Source: an uncultured Aquimonas sp.
GTDB lineage: Bacteria > Pseudomonadota > Gammaproteobacteria > Xanthomonadales > Xanthomonadaceae
NCBI GenBank assembly: GCA_946481615.1
Contig: CAMLOR010000204.1
Location: forward strand, 1 to 6,220
DNA: 6,220 nucleotides
Direction: 5' to 3'
Positions within the stretch are counted from its first letter, which is position 1, and each line of letters begins with the position of its first letter. Positions 1,663 through 6,220 of this stretch are shown here, piece by piece. A program made the translations under genes and the position numbers. A model generated the notes under the pieces. That model was not told the DNA's origin. It made no database searches and was given only the letters and a program-made list of their open reading frames with translations.

Positions 1663-3174
1663 TTACGGCGCGCGGTCGGCTCGTTCGAAGACGTAACCGG
1701 CGCTGTCGCCCACGCCGGCCCCGATCAGGAACAGCTTGAGCGGGCGCGGCAGCCACGGATGCAGCGGTTCGCCGTATTCGAGGCGGCCGCTGCCGACCAC
1801 GCGCGTGCCGTACGCCATGCGTGCATCGAAGTCGAACGAATGGCGGGCGGGGTCGAGACGCTCGATGCGGCCGCTGAAGGCGACTCGCCCGAACTCGATC
1901 GCTTCGTAACTCAGATCGGCGTGCACGTCGATGCGCTTGAAGCAGACGAATCCCGAGCATTTGTCTTCGCCGTAGCTGCCGGGCAGCAATGTGGCCAGCT
2001 CGCCCTGCGGCACCTGGCCGCCGTCCTGGGCGTAGGCATCGAGCACGGCTTCGGCCTGGCGGCCGCTGCCGTCCTGCATGGCGATCACGAGACGGCCCGC
2101 GCCATCGCGGCGCAGCGGTCCTTCGATCACGGCGCCGAACCGCGCTTCGGGATAGCTGCCACCGCTGCGTCGCAGCTGGAGCCATGGCTCGCCGTTGCGT
2201 TCGATGAAGATGCCGCGATAGAAGCCCGAGTAGAACACCCACGCGTAGACCTCGTCGCGCGAATTCACGAAGACATCGACGAATTCGTGACCGGGACCGA
2301 CGGTGCCGGTCTCGACGCGGCCGCTGTAACGATCGCCGAACCATGCGGGCCGCGCAGCCGGGATATCGCAGTTCACGCCTTGCGGGATGGTGAGGCGGGA
2401 AAGCGCGAAACTGCCACCGCCGGAGGTCGTGTCGTAGGCGAATACCGCGTGCCTGCAATCGGAGAATTCGAGCGAGACGCTGCCGATTTCGGTGACGCCC
2501 AGATCGGCATGCGCGAAGCTGCCGAAGCGCATCCCGCGCGGCGCATAGGCGCGTCCGGCGAGTCGCCGGCCCTGGCCCGAGGCTTCGATGTACACCTGCA
2601 TCGGCTGGCCGGCAGCGTCGTACGTGTACCAGTACACGAGCGCCGAGCCCGGCGCGACGACGTCGACGTTGATGCTGGCACCTTGCAGCTGGGAATGATG
2701 CCAGGTGCCTTCGAACGCACCGAGCGGGCCAGGATCGTGCGGCGTGCAACCGCCCGTCAGCGGGCGCAATGGCGTGCTGCCGTTGCCGAACGCGTGGCCA
2801 CCGTCGGCGACGTTCGAATTCCACGAAAGTGTCGCGTCATCGCAATCGCCGGGCGTGAAGCTCAGCGTGCCCCACGGCTCGAACACGAGTTCGCGTGGAT
2901 CGAAATCGTTGAAGCGAGGGCCGTAGGGCGCGTATGCGGTGCCGACGAAGGCGCCGTTCTCGCGGCGAGCTTCCGCATATACCGGCATCGAATTACCGGC
3001 GAAGTCGTAGGTGAACCAGAGCAACAGCGCGGCATCGTCCGAGAGCCGATCCACGGCAAGGCCGTGACCGGACTGCGCGGGGTTGTACCAACTGCCGGAC
3101 TGCGCGAACGCAAGCGTGGGCACCGAGAAAACGAGCGCCAGGCAGGCGCGACGGAATGCAATGAGGATGTTCAT
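1663..3174 (-). CDS. Exported protein with two tandem GxWYNP/SGxG repeats, function unknown
   Basis: A 503-residue protein starting M-N-I-L-I-A-F-R-R, with a classical Sec signal peptide (basic R8-R9, hydrophobic core 10-22, likely cleavage A-F-A|Q at 24/25). The mature part opens with two homologous units. Unit 1 (about 27-143) has G-S-W-Y-N-P, W-F-T-Y-D-x-A-G, Y-A-P-x-G-x-R-F and a Cys pair C111/C143. Unit 2 (about 157-269) has G-T-W-H-H-S, W-Y-T-Y-D-A-A-G, Y-A-P-R-G-M-R-F and C240/C269. Such repeats are common in secreted proteins of Lysobacter/Dokdonella-like bacteria and have no defined function. Residues 270-503 are not a clear third copy: they carry W-V-F-Y-S-G-F-Y-R-G (312-321), a close Cys pair C406/C411 and an unassigned tail. 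I chose ATG 3174 because the signal peptide begins there; no good Shine-Dalgarno precedes it. An in-frame ATG at 3246 would sit inside the upstream terminator hairpin and bury the signal peptide. Confidence 0.85.
   Translation of the reverse strand: MNILIAFRRACLALVFSVPTLAFAQSGSWYNPAQSGHGLAVDRLSDDAALLLWFTYDFAGNSMPVYAEARRENGAFVGTAYAPYGPRFNDFDPRELVFEPWGTLSFTPGDCDDATLSWNSNVADGGHAFGNGSTPLRPLTGGCTPHDPGPLGAFEGTWHHSQLQGASINVDVVAPGSALVYWYTYDAAGQPMQVYIEASGQGRRLAGRAYAPRGMRFGSFAHADLGVTEIGSVSLEFSDCRHAVFAYDTTSGGGSFALSRLTIPQGVNCDIPAARPAWFGDRYSGRVETGTVGPGHEFVDVFVNSRDEVYAWVFYSGFYRGIFIERNGEPWLQLRRSGGSYPEARFGAVIEGPLRRDGAGRLVIAMQDGSGRQAEAVLDAYAQDGGQVPQGELATLLPGSYGEDKCSGFVCFKRIDVHADLSYEAIEFGRVAFSGRIERLDPARHSFDFDARMAYGTRVVGSGRLEYGEPLHPWLPRPLKLFLIGAGVGDSAGYVFERADRAP
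2368..3096 (-). repeat. Two tandem protein-level repeats within the exported protein
   Basis: Unit 1 is encoded at about 3096-2746 and unit 2 at about 2706-2368, each some 113-117 residues long. They align by the order of shared elements: G-[ST]-W at the start, then W-[FY]-T-Y-D-x-A-G-x-x-M, Y-A-P-x-G-x-R-F, a G-[ST]-[LV]-S-[LF] strand, a D-C at the centre of the second half, and L-[RS]-x-L-T leading to a closing Cys. The conserved Cys pair in each unit suggests a disulfide after export. The identity is clear in protein but not in DNA, so the duplication is old. Confidence 0.7.
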
Positions 3175-3230
3175 GGTGCTGCGGAGACGCGCACGCCATG
3201 CGCATCCCCCAGCAGGTTTTCCGACCGCAC

Positions 3231-3270
3231 AAAAGAAAAGCCCCACAAGCTAGGGGGGAGCTTGTGGGGC
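3231..3270 (-). terminator. Rho-independent terminator of the sX13-like RNA
   Basis: Stem GCCCCACAAGCT (3270-3259) pairs perfectly with its complement (3251-3240) across a seven-base loop (3258-3252). On the minus strand the tract TTTTCTTTT (3239-3231) follows directly. The orientation is unambiguous, because the plus strand has no T-run after the stem. It also serves as the third C-rich loop of the sRNA and would stop any polA read-through before the exported-protein gene, whose start is 57 bases further on. Confidence 0.92.
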
Positions 3271-3350
3271 GGGGTCGGAAGCGGGCTTGGGGAGAGACCG
3301 GCTTCCGACTGGTTCGAATCGAAGGGGGGTCGATTCGAACCGCGGGTGGC
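3231..3350 (-). ncRNA. sX13: sX13-like trans-acting small RNA with three C-rich hairpin loops
   Basis: Read on the minus strand, three hairpins follow one another. Hairpin 1 (3341-3311) has a perfect 12-bp stem, GGTTCGAATCGA with its complement, and loop CCCCCCT. Hairpin 2 (3309-3274) has a 9-bp stem, GTCGGAAGC/GCTTCCGAC, and an 18-nt loop containing TCTCCCC. Hairpin 3 (3270-3240) has a perfect 12-bp stem, loop CCCCCCT, and is followed by TTTTCTTTT. From recall of the published Xanthomonas work, sX13 is an RNA of about 115 nt encoded between polA and a hypothetical gene, with three C-rich loops that pair with G-rich motifs near mRNA start sites. Size, fold, loops and position all agree here. 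The 3' end is fixed by the U-tract; the 5' end is not visible, and 3350 is an estimate (a small GGTGG/CCACC hairpin at 3345-3362 may lie inside or just upstream). I cannot test sequence identity with the Xanthomonas RNA. Confidence 0.8.
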
Positions 3351-3370
3351 GTTGCGTCCACCGTGTGCAC

Positions 3371-3450
3371 AGATTACGGATTCAGGCTGAAAGTTCCGTG
3401 AGCAGTTTCGTAAATAAACCGATAAGTTCAGAAACCATTCAGTCCAAAAA
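3371..3450 (-). promoter_or_regulatory. Low-GC stretch, probable promoter region of the sX13-like RNA
   Basis: By hand count these 80 bases are about 39% G+C, far below the surrounding coding DNA. They lie directly upstream of the hairpin cluster in the minus direction, which fits a promoter. The best -10-like hexamer is TAATCT (minus strand, 3376-3371), which would place a start near 3364; no good TTGACA-like box lies 16-18 bases before it. A TTGGAC at 3447-3442 could be a -35 for an earlier start near 3410. An 11-base dyad, TTCAG-C-CTGAA (3391-3381), overlaps the spacer and could be an operator. The region is plausible; the exact boxes are not established. Confidence 0.35.
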
Positions 3451-3470
3451 TCCGGACTGCGGGCATCCGG
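3446..3470 (-). terminator. Candidate polA terminator
   Basis: On the minus strand CCGGAT (3470-3465) pairs with GTCCGG (3457-3452), including one G-U pair, around the seven-base loop GCCCGCA, and is followed by ATTTTT (3451-3446). It lies about 105 bases downstream of the polA stop and would end the polA transcript before the sRNA promoter region. The stem is short (six pairs). Two other hairpins compete for the same bases, GGGCAT/ATGCCC at 3461-3480 and CAGTCC/GGACTG at 3440-3459, so its efficiency is uncertain. Confidence 0.4.
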
Positions 3471-3574
3471 GTGCATGCCCATAGCATCGATGCGTCAGCG
3501 GGAAGAAACGTTTCATCCGGACACGCTCGTCTCGTCGCGAAATGGGGGCGGTCCACCCCGCTTCAAGGCCCGGA

Positions 3575-6220
3575 TCAGTGCGCCTGATCCCAGTTTTCGC
3601 CGACCCCGGCGTCGACGACCAGCGGCACGCGCAGCTGCGCCGCGGCCTGCATGCGCTGGCGGACTTCGTCCAGCATTTCTTCGACGAATCCGGCTTCGAC
3701 CTCGAACACCAGTTCGTCGTGCACCTGCATGATCATCGCCGCGCGGCCGGCGTGCGGTTGCAGCCAGTCGTGCACGCTGCGCATGGCGCGCTTGATGATG
3801 TCGGCGGCCGTGCCCTGCATCGGCGCGTTGATGGCGGCGCGCTCGGCGCCCGCGCGCAGGCCCTGATTGCGCGAATGGATCTCGAGCAGATGCAGGCGGC
3901 GGCCGAACACGGTTTCGACGTAGCCGCTTTCGCGCGCCTGCTGCCGCACCTGCTCCATGTAGCGCTGCACGCCCGGGTAGCGCGCGAAGTACAGCGCCAT
4001 GTAGTCCGCGGCATCGCCGCGCGAGATGCCGAGGTTGCGCGCCAGCCCGAAGGCGCTCATGCCGTACATCAGGCCGAAGTTGATGGCCTTGGCGGCGCGC
4101 CGTTGGCCGGCGTCGACCTGATCCACCGGCAGGCCGAACACTTCCGCCGCGGTGGCGCGATGGATGTCCTGCCCGCTCTCGAACGCGGCGACGAGGCCCG
4201 GGTCTTCCGAGAGGTGGGCCATGATGCGCAGCTCGATCTGCGAGTAGTCGCAGGCGACGATCCTGCGTCCGGGCGGCGCGATGAACGCGGTGCGGATGCG
4301 GCGTCCATCCTCGGTGCGGATCGGGATGTTCTGCAGGTTGGGATCGGTGGACGAAAGCCGCCCGGTGGCGGCGCCCGCCTGGTGGTAGCTCGTGTGCACG
4401 CGGCCGGTGTGCGGATTCACCATCTCCGGCAACTTGTCGGTATAGGTGCTGCGCAGCTTGGCAAGCGCGCGGTGTTCGAGGATGAGGCGCGGCAACTCGT
4501 GCTGGTCGGCGATGGCCTCGAGCGCTTCCTCGTTGGTGCTGGGCTGGCCGGTGGCGGTCTTCACCAGCACCGGCAGCTTCAGTTCCTCGAACAGCAGCTG
4601 GCACAGCTGCTTGGGCGAGTCGAGGTTGAAGTTGCGCCCCGCCGCCTCGTGCGCGCGCTGCTGCGCGGACAGCATGCGGCGCGAAAGATCGGCGCTCTGG
4701 CGGCGCAGTTCGTCGGCATCGATCAATACGCCGTTGGCTTCCATCGCCGCCAGCACTTCCACCAGCGGCATCTCGATCTCGCGGTAGACGCGCTCCAGCC
4801 CCGGCTCGCCCTGCACGCGCGGCGCCAGGGCGTGGTGCAGGCGCAGCGTGATGTCGGCATCCTCGGCCGCATAGGCCGTGGCGCATTCGACCGAAACCTG
4901 CGAGAACGGGATCTGCTTGGCGCCCTTGCCGCAGACGTCCTCGTATTTGACGGTGGTGTAGCCGAGGTAGCGTTGCGCCAGCGAATCCATGTCGTGGCGG
5001 CTGGCGTTCGAGTTCCACACGAAGCTCTCCAGCATCGTGTCCTCGGCATAGCCCTGCACCGCGATGCCGTTGCGGCGAAACATCTGCAGATCGTACTTGC
5101 CGTGCTGGCCGACCTTGCGCCGGGCGACATCCTCGAAGATGGGCCGCAGCGCGGCCAGCACCTCGTCGCGCGGCAGCTGTGCCGGGGCGTCTGGTCCGTC
5201 GTGCGCGATCGGCACGTAAGCGGCGCGGCCACTCTCGACGGCGAAGCTGATGCCCACGAGATTGGCGCGCATCGGATCCAGCGAATCGGTTTCGGTGTCG
5301 AAGGCGATCAGGTCGGCGGTGCGCAGGCGCTCGGCCCATGCAACGAGCTGCTCGCGCGTGAGGACGGCCTCGTATTCGCCTTTCACCGCCAACGACGCGT
5401 CGATGGCTTCGGCGGGCTGCGCGGCGCCGCGCGCGAATCCGCCGCTGCGCGCCTTGCCCGGCTCCTTGTTGGTAGTCACCGACGGGCCGCCGCCTTCGAG
5501 TTCGCGCAGCGCCTGCACGAAGCCGTAGCGCGAGTACAGGCCCTTGAGCGCTTCGGCATCGGCGTCGCGCAGCTTCAGCGTGCTGCAATCGTCGGCCAGG
5601 GGAACGTCGGTCTTGATGGTGGCGAGCTGGCGGTTGAGCGGCAGCTGCGGCAACGCCGCCCGCAGGTTCTCGCCGATCTTGCCGCCGATCTTCTCCGAAT
5701 TGGCGATCACGCCGTCGAGCGTGCCGTACTCGCCAAGCCATTTGGCGGCGGTCTTCGGGCCGCACTTCTCCACGCCGGGGATGTTGTCGACGCTGTCGCC
5801 CATCAGCGCCAGGAAGTCGATGATCTGCGCCGGCTTCACGCCGAATTTCTCGACGACGGCGGCTTCGGAATCCAGGCGCGAACCGCTCATGGTGTTGATC
5901 AGCGTGATGCCCGGCCGCACGAGCTGCGCGAAGTCCTTGTCGCCGGTGGACACGGTGACGTCCATGCCGCGCTCGGCGCCCTGCAGCGCCAGCGTGCCGA
6001 TCACGTCGTCGGCTTCCACGCCCGGCTCGCGCAGGATCGGGAACCCGAGCGCCGAGACGATGGCGAGCATCGGCTCGATCTGCACGCGCAACTCGTCCGG
6101 CATCGGCGGGCGGTTGGCCTTGTACTCGGCGTACAACTCGTCGCGGAACGTCGGGCCGCTGGCGTCCATCACGAACGCGGCACAGTCCGGTTTCTCCTTG
6201 AGCGTGGCGCGCAGCATGTT
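3575..6220 (-). CDS. polA: DNA polymerase I (5' end of gene beyond the window)
   Basis: PolA fills gaps and removes RNA primers in lagging-strand synthesis and excision repair. The frame runs unbroken to the window edge. The first Met in view (6217) aligns with internal Met45 of E. coli PolA in 'L-N-M-L-R-S-L', and the base triplet before it (AAC) supplies that Asn, so about 44 residues are missing. Counting from that Met, the 5'-nuclease domain (to about 240) has E-A-D-D at 68-71, T-G-D-K-D at 91-95 and M-G-D-S-V-D-N-I-P-G at 139-148. The proofreading domain keeps D307/E309 (F-D-T-E-T), D376 (K-Y-D) and Y449/D453, so it should be active. Polymerase motif A has D657 in D-Y-S-Q-I-E-L-R; the O-helix is R706...K710, F714, Y718; motif C is Q-V-H-D-E-L-V-F-E-V with D834. 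These match E. coli D705, K758, F762, Y766 and D882 with a constant offset of 48. The C-terminus G-E-N-W-D-Q-A-H is canonical and complete. Confidence 0.98.
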   Translation of the reverse strand, partial: NMLRATLKEKPDCAAFVMDASGPTFRDELYAEYKANRPPMPDELRVQIEPMLAIVSALGFPILREPGVEADDVIGTLALQGAERGMDVTVSTGDKDFAQLVRPGITLINTMSGSRLDSEAAVVEKFGVKPAQIIDFLALMGDSVDNIPGVEKCGPKTAAKWLGEYGTLDGVIANSEKIGGKIGENLRAALPQLPLNRQLATIKTDVPLADDCSTLKLRDADAEALKGLYSRYGFVQALRELEGGGPSVTTNKEPGKARSGGFARGAAQPAEAIDASLAVKGEYEAVLTREQLVAWAERLRTADLIAFDTETDSLDPMRANLVGISFAVESGRAAYVPIAHDGPDAPAQLPRDEVLAALRPIFEDVARRKVGQHGKYDLQMFRRNGIAVQGYAEDTMLESFVWNSNASRHDMDSLAQRYLGYTTVKYEDVCGKGAKQIPFSQVSVECATAYAAEDADITLRLHHALAPRVQGEPGLERVYREIEMPLVEVLAAMEANGVLIDADELRRQSADLSRRMLSAQQRAHEAAGRNFNLDSPKQLCQLLFEELKLPVLVKTATGQPSTNEEALEAIADQHELPRLILEHRALAKLRSTYTDKLPEMVNPHTGRVHTSYHQAGAATGRLSSTDPNLQNIPIRTEDGRRIRTAFIAPPGRRIVACDYSQIELRIMAHLSEDPGLVAAFESGQDIHRATAAEVFGLPVDQVDAGQRRAAKAINFGLMYGMSAFGLARNLGISRGDAADYMALYFARYPGVQRYMEQVRQQARESGYVETVFGRRLHLLEIHSRNQGLRAGAERAAINAPMQGTAADIIKRAMRSVHDWLQPHAGRAAMIMQVHDELVFEVEAGFVEEMLDEVRQRMQAAAQLRVPLVVDAGVGENWDQAH

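Follow-up and report, generated by a model that had tools for sequence, protein, structure and literature searches.

sX13 is a proven abundant RNA of Xanthomonas (PMC3771888). It has been described as 115 nt long with an unstructured 5′ region and as constitutively expressed, and salt, a temperature of 37 °C and minimal medium each raise its level (PMC3771888). Repression by Xanthomonas sX13 needs both its C-rich loops and G-rich motifs in the mRNA and proceeds without Hfq (PMC3771888). ErsA, or Pseudomon-1, of P. aeruginosa is induced under envelope stress and on transfer to body temperature (PMC7565897); it has a U-rich single-stranded stretch and depends on Hfq (PMC8575079). Spot 42, also Hfq-dependent, belongs to carbon metabolism (PMC3771888). 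The authors of the sX13 study did not decide whether such RNAs are also encoded at polA in other bacteria (PMC3771888). Our literature search, made mostly without subscription papers, returned no paper naming both ErsA and sX13 and none in which any two of Pseudomon-1, sX13, anti-hemB and ErsA occur together.

We analyzed a stretch of 6,220 nt, hereafter the window. A cmscan of the whole window places the Rfam sX13 model (RF02232) at 3234-3353 on the minus strand with 52.7 bits against a gathering cut-off of 50 (E = 5.1e-8). Four Rfam matches were obtained at E up to 10, and sX13 alone lies above its cut-off: 6C (RF01066) overlaps the element at 38.5 bits (cut-off 47) and Atu_C7 at 25.6 bits (cut-off 45). 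The models of ErsA (RF01719), anti-hemB (RF02837) and Spot 42 (RF00021) did not match the window at E up to 10. Our own model R1, trained on 17 RNAs of Rhodanobacteraceae type with the window left out, scores the element at 82.1 bits (E = 4.9e-14, the E-values of R1 and of model R2 introduced below being rough). As in sX13, polA lies upstream on the same strand, three stems carry C-rich loops and the terminator is at stem 3. The initial annotation had read an sX13-type RNA here and named the Rfam model as a check; the check was passed, narrowly, and with the R1 score and a polA-adjacent place and C-rich loops as published (PMC3771888) its sX13 reading is supported.

The element consists of successive hairpins on the minus strand. 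P1 (3311-3341) has 12 bp and the loop CCCCCCT; P2 (3274-3309) has the loop CTCTCCCCAA, with CCCC within a larger loop; and P3 (3240-3270) again has 12 bp and the loop CCCCCCT. Folds and covariation support all three, and the terminator scan also identifies P3 as a terminator stem, followed by the T-rich tail TTTTCTTTT (3231-3239). The initial annotation had placed these three C-loop hairpins and the terminator at the end of the third correctly. Its range of 3231-3350 omits a fourth, 5′-terminal hairpin, P0 (3345-3362; GGUGG(A)CG-CAA-CG-CCACC), which also lies outside the Rfam model. The whole predicted RNA, of about 129 nt, would span 3234-3362, compared with 3234-3353 for the Rfam match and 3234-3364 for the R1 match. 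The region 3230-3420 folds at -78.6 kcal/mol (z = -7.67), and none of 200 shuffled sequences was as stable.

Upstream of P0 the window reads GGAACTT-N17-TCTGT, with the -35-like box at 3391-3397 and the -10-like box at 3369-3373 of the minus strand, and six bases then lead to P0. The consensus of sigma-E (ECF) promoters is GAACTT, then TCTGA or TCTAA about 16 nt on. A sigma-70 scan of 3100-3620 gave no promoter-like site. The same interval holds six terminator-like sites, compared with 0.7 in shuffled sequence, and those at 3440-3470 (minus strand) lie between polA and the RNA gene; with terminator-like hairpins following polA itself, a separate promoter for the RNA is suggested. From the boxes, sigma-E control of the RNA in the window's organism is the control we would predict.

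The gene for DNA polymerase I, polA, runs on the minus strand from beyond the window to its stop at 3575 (3575-6220; Pfam DNA_pol_A, E = 2.6e-159), adjoining the element as the initial annotation had it. The neighbor on the other side, which it had called an exported-protein gene, is an ORF at 1663-3174 on the same strand (ATG at 3174) with an N-terminus that looks signal-peptide-like by eye and no Pfam match at E up to 0.001. The sequence GGGGG occurs at 3210-3206 of the minus strand, 32-36 nt ahead of this ATG and just past the RNA terminator; that it might be a neighboring target site of the RNA is only a guess. Facing this ORF, positions 92-1656 of the plus strand hold genes for a DUF218 protein and for coproporphyrinogen III oxidase (hemF). 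A plasmid search of the window gave no match.

We consider it likely that the element is the gene of a trans-acting small RNA of the sX13 family, with four hairpins, a sigma-E-type promoter and C-rich loops as its active parts. P0, this promoter and the wide family described below all go beyond the initial annotation.

Relatives were collected with the window's PolA as query, taking the best 80 of 588 polA loci. Rfam sX13 reaches its cut-off in 19 of the 20 loci L001-L020 and in 11 of the 20 loci L021-L040, and in none of L041-L060 or L061-L080. Whole-genome searches of the genomes behind the Lysobacterales loci found sX13 in 15 of 15 at E up to 0.1 (10 of 15 above the cut-off), compared with 3 of 14 control genomes at that E-value and none above the cut-off; the five best below-cut-off matches in the Lysobacterales genomes lie downstream of polA. 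At E up to 0.01 the Rfam model finds sX13 in 240 of the 397 genomes searched in the order, in 142 of them above the cut-off; none of the 14 controls matches. For comparison of loci, 100 more were taken from the high-scoring part of the matches listed, so that weak members are under-represented in the order counts. Of 133 loci (the window, 32 named loci and the 100 from the matches listed), 127 have polA upstream of the RNA in the same orientation, and three loops with CCC are found in 130 of the 131 RNAs of the order, a sample that includes the best matches listed.

Six consecutive C in the first C-rich stretch occur, among the 131 sampled RNAs, only in the window and in L004, an unclassified Lysobacteraceae bacterium. 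The L004 RNA looks most like the window's, and its P0 arms are identical. A role in virulence is not implied for the window's RNA, since its closest look-alike is that of L004 and many of the lineages carrying such RNAs are of unknown lifestyle.

The promoter motif recurs within the order. A strict sigma-E motif is present in 65 of 124 distinct sX13 upstream regions, the window included (shuffled mean 1.7, maximum 6), and a loose one in 81 (shuffled mean 8.4, maximum 17), in a set that includes loci from the high-scoring part of the matches listed. The 17-nt spacing is the commonest among motif-bearing relatives (62 of 81). Even the loose motif is missing from the remaining 43 of 124, and with these counts we gave up sigma-E control as a property of the whole order. 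For the named loci with distinct upstream regions, window included, the loose motif is found in 19 of 33 and missing from 14. It is absent from both Xanthomonas, two of three Stenotrophomonas, three of four Pseudoxanthomonas, two Lysobacter, one Luteimonas and five others; some of the motif-less named loci carry a shifted box such as GGAAACTT. The upstream region of rpoE itself bears the motif in 8 of 11 genomes (shuffled mean 0.4, maximum 3), and all 11 genomes examined from the set of 15 possess rseA, the anti-sigma gene.

Beyond the order, R1 searched at E up to 10 against 46 sources gave 21 matches, and 20 of these follow polA on its strand (the exception being L053:2828). A second model, R2, was built from alignment A4, which comes mainly from this order and includes the window and some distant loci. 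At E up to 4e-5, R2 matches 12 of the 39 more distant polA loci (L042-L080, a set including L054, which is labelled Lysobacterales and has no R2 match), with 13 matches in total, every one downstream of polA and on its strand. Seven of these 12 loci had supplied rows to A4, and five had not (L048, L052, L067, L076 and L080). Two weak R2 matches in the distant polA loci lie elsewhere (E = 0.18 and 0.33). The sigma-E motif occurs in 10 of the 39 loci (shuffled mean 0.58, maximum 2; antisense 1; polA coding control 0), and a looser pattern in 8 of 39 (0.8, maximum 3). A de novo scan for CCCC-loop hairpins downstream of 38 distant polA loci found 18, compared with 7.3 (sd 1.9) in shuffled sequence and one on the other strand; only three of the 38 loci have two or more such hairpins, compared with 0.95 in shuffled sequence.

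In an even sample of the class, R2 matches 117 of 369 genomes at E up to 0.01, five of which are also in the order sample. We examined 61 of these class-wide matches, 25 as returned and 36 chosen from the matches listed, taking them by inference to lie outside the order. With L242, at a contig edge, scored as a miss, and L248 and L270 representing the same G573 locus, polA is upstream in 33, engB is downstream in 40 and one or the other is present in 49 of the 61; by NCBIfam, three of the engB queries are YihA/YsxC (EngB), and so is the ORF next to the RNA in L246. The sigma-E motif precedes 46 of the 61 (shuffled mean 1.1, maximum 4). Among 59 class-wide RNAs examined for CCC loops, 42 have three or more, 14 have two and three have one. 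In alignment A5, of 95 rows, all 42 pairs covary, with a score of 0.642 (shuffled 0.176, slid no more than 0.104). Pairing is kept in 95.1% of cells for the outer P0 helix and in only 69.1% for the two inner pairs, and CTCCCT occurs in 70 rows (shuffled mean 10.6, maximum 19).

The survey also turned up variants. Two to four tandem sX13-like copies lie downstream of polA in, among others, L035 (4294-4995), L046 (4195-4758), L270 (G573) and L271 (G680). L069 (Halothiobacillaceae) has, about 35-120 nt past the polA stop, a sigma-E-like box and a 5′ hairpin with a GCAACG loop and no model match, perhaps a shortened relative. Four genomes of the order (L266-L269) have a second R2 match, scoring up to about 43 bits; these second matches have neither a sigma-E box nor polA, and we rejected them as off-target. 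Three of these, L266 1001-1143, L267 1001-1103 (minus strand) and L268 1001-1106 (minus strand), follow an ORF that is phasin-like by eye and consist of two C-rich-loop hairpins of the TCCCTCCCCC type with a terminator; they are perhaps a second, 3′UTR-derived C-rich-loop RNA.

The Rfam models of other RNAs fall on the same places. When 20 class-wide loci were scanned at Rfam cut-offs, a single match was obtained, anti-hemB in L246, at the R2 place. At E up to 0.05 the same loci gave 36 matches (anti-hemB, sX13, ErsA, ar14 and one ncS037), each overlapping the R2 place; several RNAs match two or three families, and no single RNA in these 20 loci is matched by sX13, ErsA and anti-hemB together at that E-value. 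The ErsA model finds 15 of 185 class genomes at E up to 0.01 (one above cut-off). Compared by eye, nine of the 15 matches follow polA on its strand by no more than about 320 nt; of the others, those in G559 and G424 coincide with R2 matches and four lie at neither kind of place. The ErsA gene that passes the cut-off (G565, L351) starts 104 nt downstream of polA, is found by R2 at 29.3 bits, and by eye shows GAACTT, TCATA, a 5′ hairpin and later C-rich loops without P1. The anti-hemB model finds 107 of 185 class genomes, nine above the cut-off; it also matches 5 of 14 control genomes weakly, which makes the anti-hemB branch less certain.

These scores raise the question of convergence, in which the likeness of sX13, ErsA and anti-hemB would reflect C-rich loops and a GC-rich terminator acquired separately, and a single family would exist only in the Xanthomonas order. 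The mostly sub-threshold scores, the anti-hemB matches in controls and the lack of P1 in the ErsA gene examined are in keeping with this account, and the R2 matches of about 43 bits at other gene ends show that C-rich hairpins alone can score. Against it stand the common place beside polA or engB, the common promoter type, the common order of hairpins with covariation, and the ErsA model, which matches 0 of 14 controls and has most of its genome matches just downstream of polA. We regard convergence as unlikely, though it is the strongest of the alternatives, and prefer common descent in one family.

The second alternative concerns the 5′ end. The Rfam model and the published 115-nt RNA both start at the A of AACGCC, within the P0 loop; the published start was assigned here from the length of the RNA and its distance to polA. 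On the description of sX13 as published, the RNA would be a constitutive 115-nt transcript with an unstructured 5′ end, and the inverted repeat that we call P0 would be a DNA operator for a dimeric regulator. The published length and structure and the stated constitutive expression agree with this (PMC3771888), and the repeat is centred on the published start. The mismatches within the repeat speak against the operator. In 80 distinct sequences including the window, 609 of 688 stem cells are Watson-Crick, 59 are G-U, 4 are A-C and 16 are other, and when the position where T-G is commonest is omitted the ratio is 26 G-U to 3 A-C. DNA binding would favor neither mismatch. G-U is tolerated and A-C hardly, and because an operator would not favor G-T, the P0 arms appear to be transcribed on the minus strand; we rejected the operator reading of P0 on this excess. 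Two registers were used in this count, the window's having a bulged A, and each sequence was assigned to the register with the higher pairing score, in which G-U counts and A-C does not; the two scores are 7-8 and 1-5 in nearly all sequences, and the choice of register thus hardly affects the ratio.

Alignments point in the same direction. The P0 arms vary freely with pairing kept: in A4, two-sided changes are seen in 8 of 8 P0 pairs, and its two helices pair in 98.3 and 95.9% of cells. The GCAA core is present in 131 of 132 loci with upstream sequence, a set including a sample from the best matches listed. The covariation score of the whole structure in A4 (91 rows) is 0.670, compared with 0.223 shuffled and at most 0.076 slid, A4 and A5 both being fitted to their own models, which favors the model structure. 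When run on a plain MAFFT alignment, RNAalifold did not recover P0 or the greater part of P1 and P2, and for this reason the structure-aware alignments from our own models were used. In addition, 15 nt separate the end of the -10-like box from the published start, too great a distance for the box to serve it. We consider the published description, combined with a DNA operator, a distinctly improbable account of the locus. With P0 as a transcribed hairpin, the real 5′ end would probably lie about 9 nt upstream of the published one, near 3362 in the window, and a processed 5′ end in Xanthomonas may be compatible with the P0 data. An sX13 shortened by 14 nt from the 5′ end retained complementation (PMC3771888), which indicates that P0 is dispensable under a strong foreign promoter. 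P0, missing from the Rfam family model, offers a checkable correction to that model.

In X. campestris, RpoE1 raises hrpX and not hrpG (PMC6085468), and sX13 does the same in X. campestris pv. vesicatoria (PMC3771888). This parallel fits a sigma-E link, whereas the drifted boxes of Xanthomonas argue against a direct one. The main text of the sX13 report uses the word sigma once, for RpoS, and contains none of the terms RpoE, ECF and envelope (PMC3771888).

That the hairpins are just polA terminators and spacer, with no separate RNA, is hardly credible: P3 is a terminator and polA does lie upstream, but polA has its own terminator-like hairpins ahead of the element, the loops and upstream boxes are conserved in relatives, and in Xanthomonas the RNA itself is established (PMC3771888).

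We propose the following mechanism for the sX13-family RNA of the window. Judging from the promoter box, RNA polymerase with sigma-E would probably start near 3362. The RNA would fold into four hairpins, in which P0 may guard the 5′ end, P1 and P2 would present C-rich loops, and P3 would supply the third C-rich loop as well as the end of transcription. By analogy with Xanthomonas sX13, the loops would pair with G runs at or near ribosome-binding sites and repress translation. A conserved candidate target is hfq: in 12 of 15 genomes of relatives GGGG lies near its start (-15 to +12), and in three there is none. Nine of these genomes have it near the ribosome-binding site and five at the site tested in Xanthomonas, two of the latter having it at both; the background for such motifs at ribosome-binding sites is 241 of 4,487 genes, a figure that applies to Xcv and not to the 15 genomes (PMC3771888). 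The target set in the window's organism is likewise putative.

Taken alone, the window adds one more sX13, and the comparison matters more. Judged by sequence, many polA loci of other bacteria do encode such RNAs, with the same four-hairpin plan and often an envelope-stress-type promoter. On balance we think it probable that a single ancient family of stress RNAs, encoded next to polA and/or engB, spans the Gammaproteobacteria in the broad GTDB sense, with a sigma-E promoter, P0, C-rich loops and sometimes tandem copies; that sX13, ErsA and anti-hemB are its branches; that the published 5′ end of sX13 is about 9 nt short; and that Xanthomonas has lost the ancestral sigma-E control. If this is true, regulators so far studied apart would belong to a single system, sharing sigma-E as their input and, as their output, the action of C-rich loops on G-rich ribosome-binding sites.

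Among known systems, Spot 42 resembles the sX13 family in its place downstream of polA, where it was found in L073, but the R2 model does not match L073. The 6C RNA has hairpins with six-C runs as the window does, with a score below the 6C cut-off. Anti-hemB of Burkholderia has a consensus with a CCUCCCUGAG loop, and its model matches many class-wide relatives at the R2 place; it covers the later hairpins only, does not match the window, and the likeness is one of models only. ErsA, judged from the single gene L351, shares with the window the position downstream of polA, the promoter of sigma-E/AlgU type, the 5′ hairpin and the C-rich loops. The sigma-22/sigma-E-type promoter, an ErsA trait, is present in the window by sequence; as for the polA-engB place of ErsA, the window has polA, and engB is not among the four window ORFs given to Pfam. 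ErsA differs in that L351 lacks P1 and the ErsA model does not match the window, and, unlike sX13, ErsA needs Hfq and, for some targets, its U-rich stretch. The closest system is sX13 of X. campestris pv. vesicatoria, with the same polA place, three C-rich loops, terminator and a model score above the cut-off. The window stands apart from it by six-C runs in loops 1 and 3, by clear sigma-E-type boxes that have drifted in the two Xanthomonas loci, and by P0, which is part of neither the published nor the Rfam sX13. These comparisons lead us to infer a single family with sX13, ErsA and, probably, anti-hemB as its branches.
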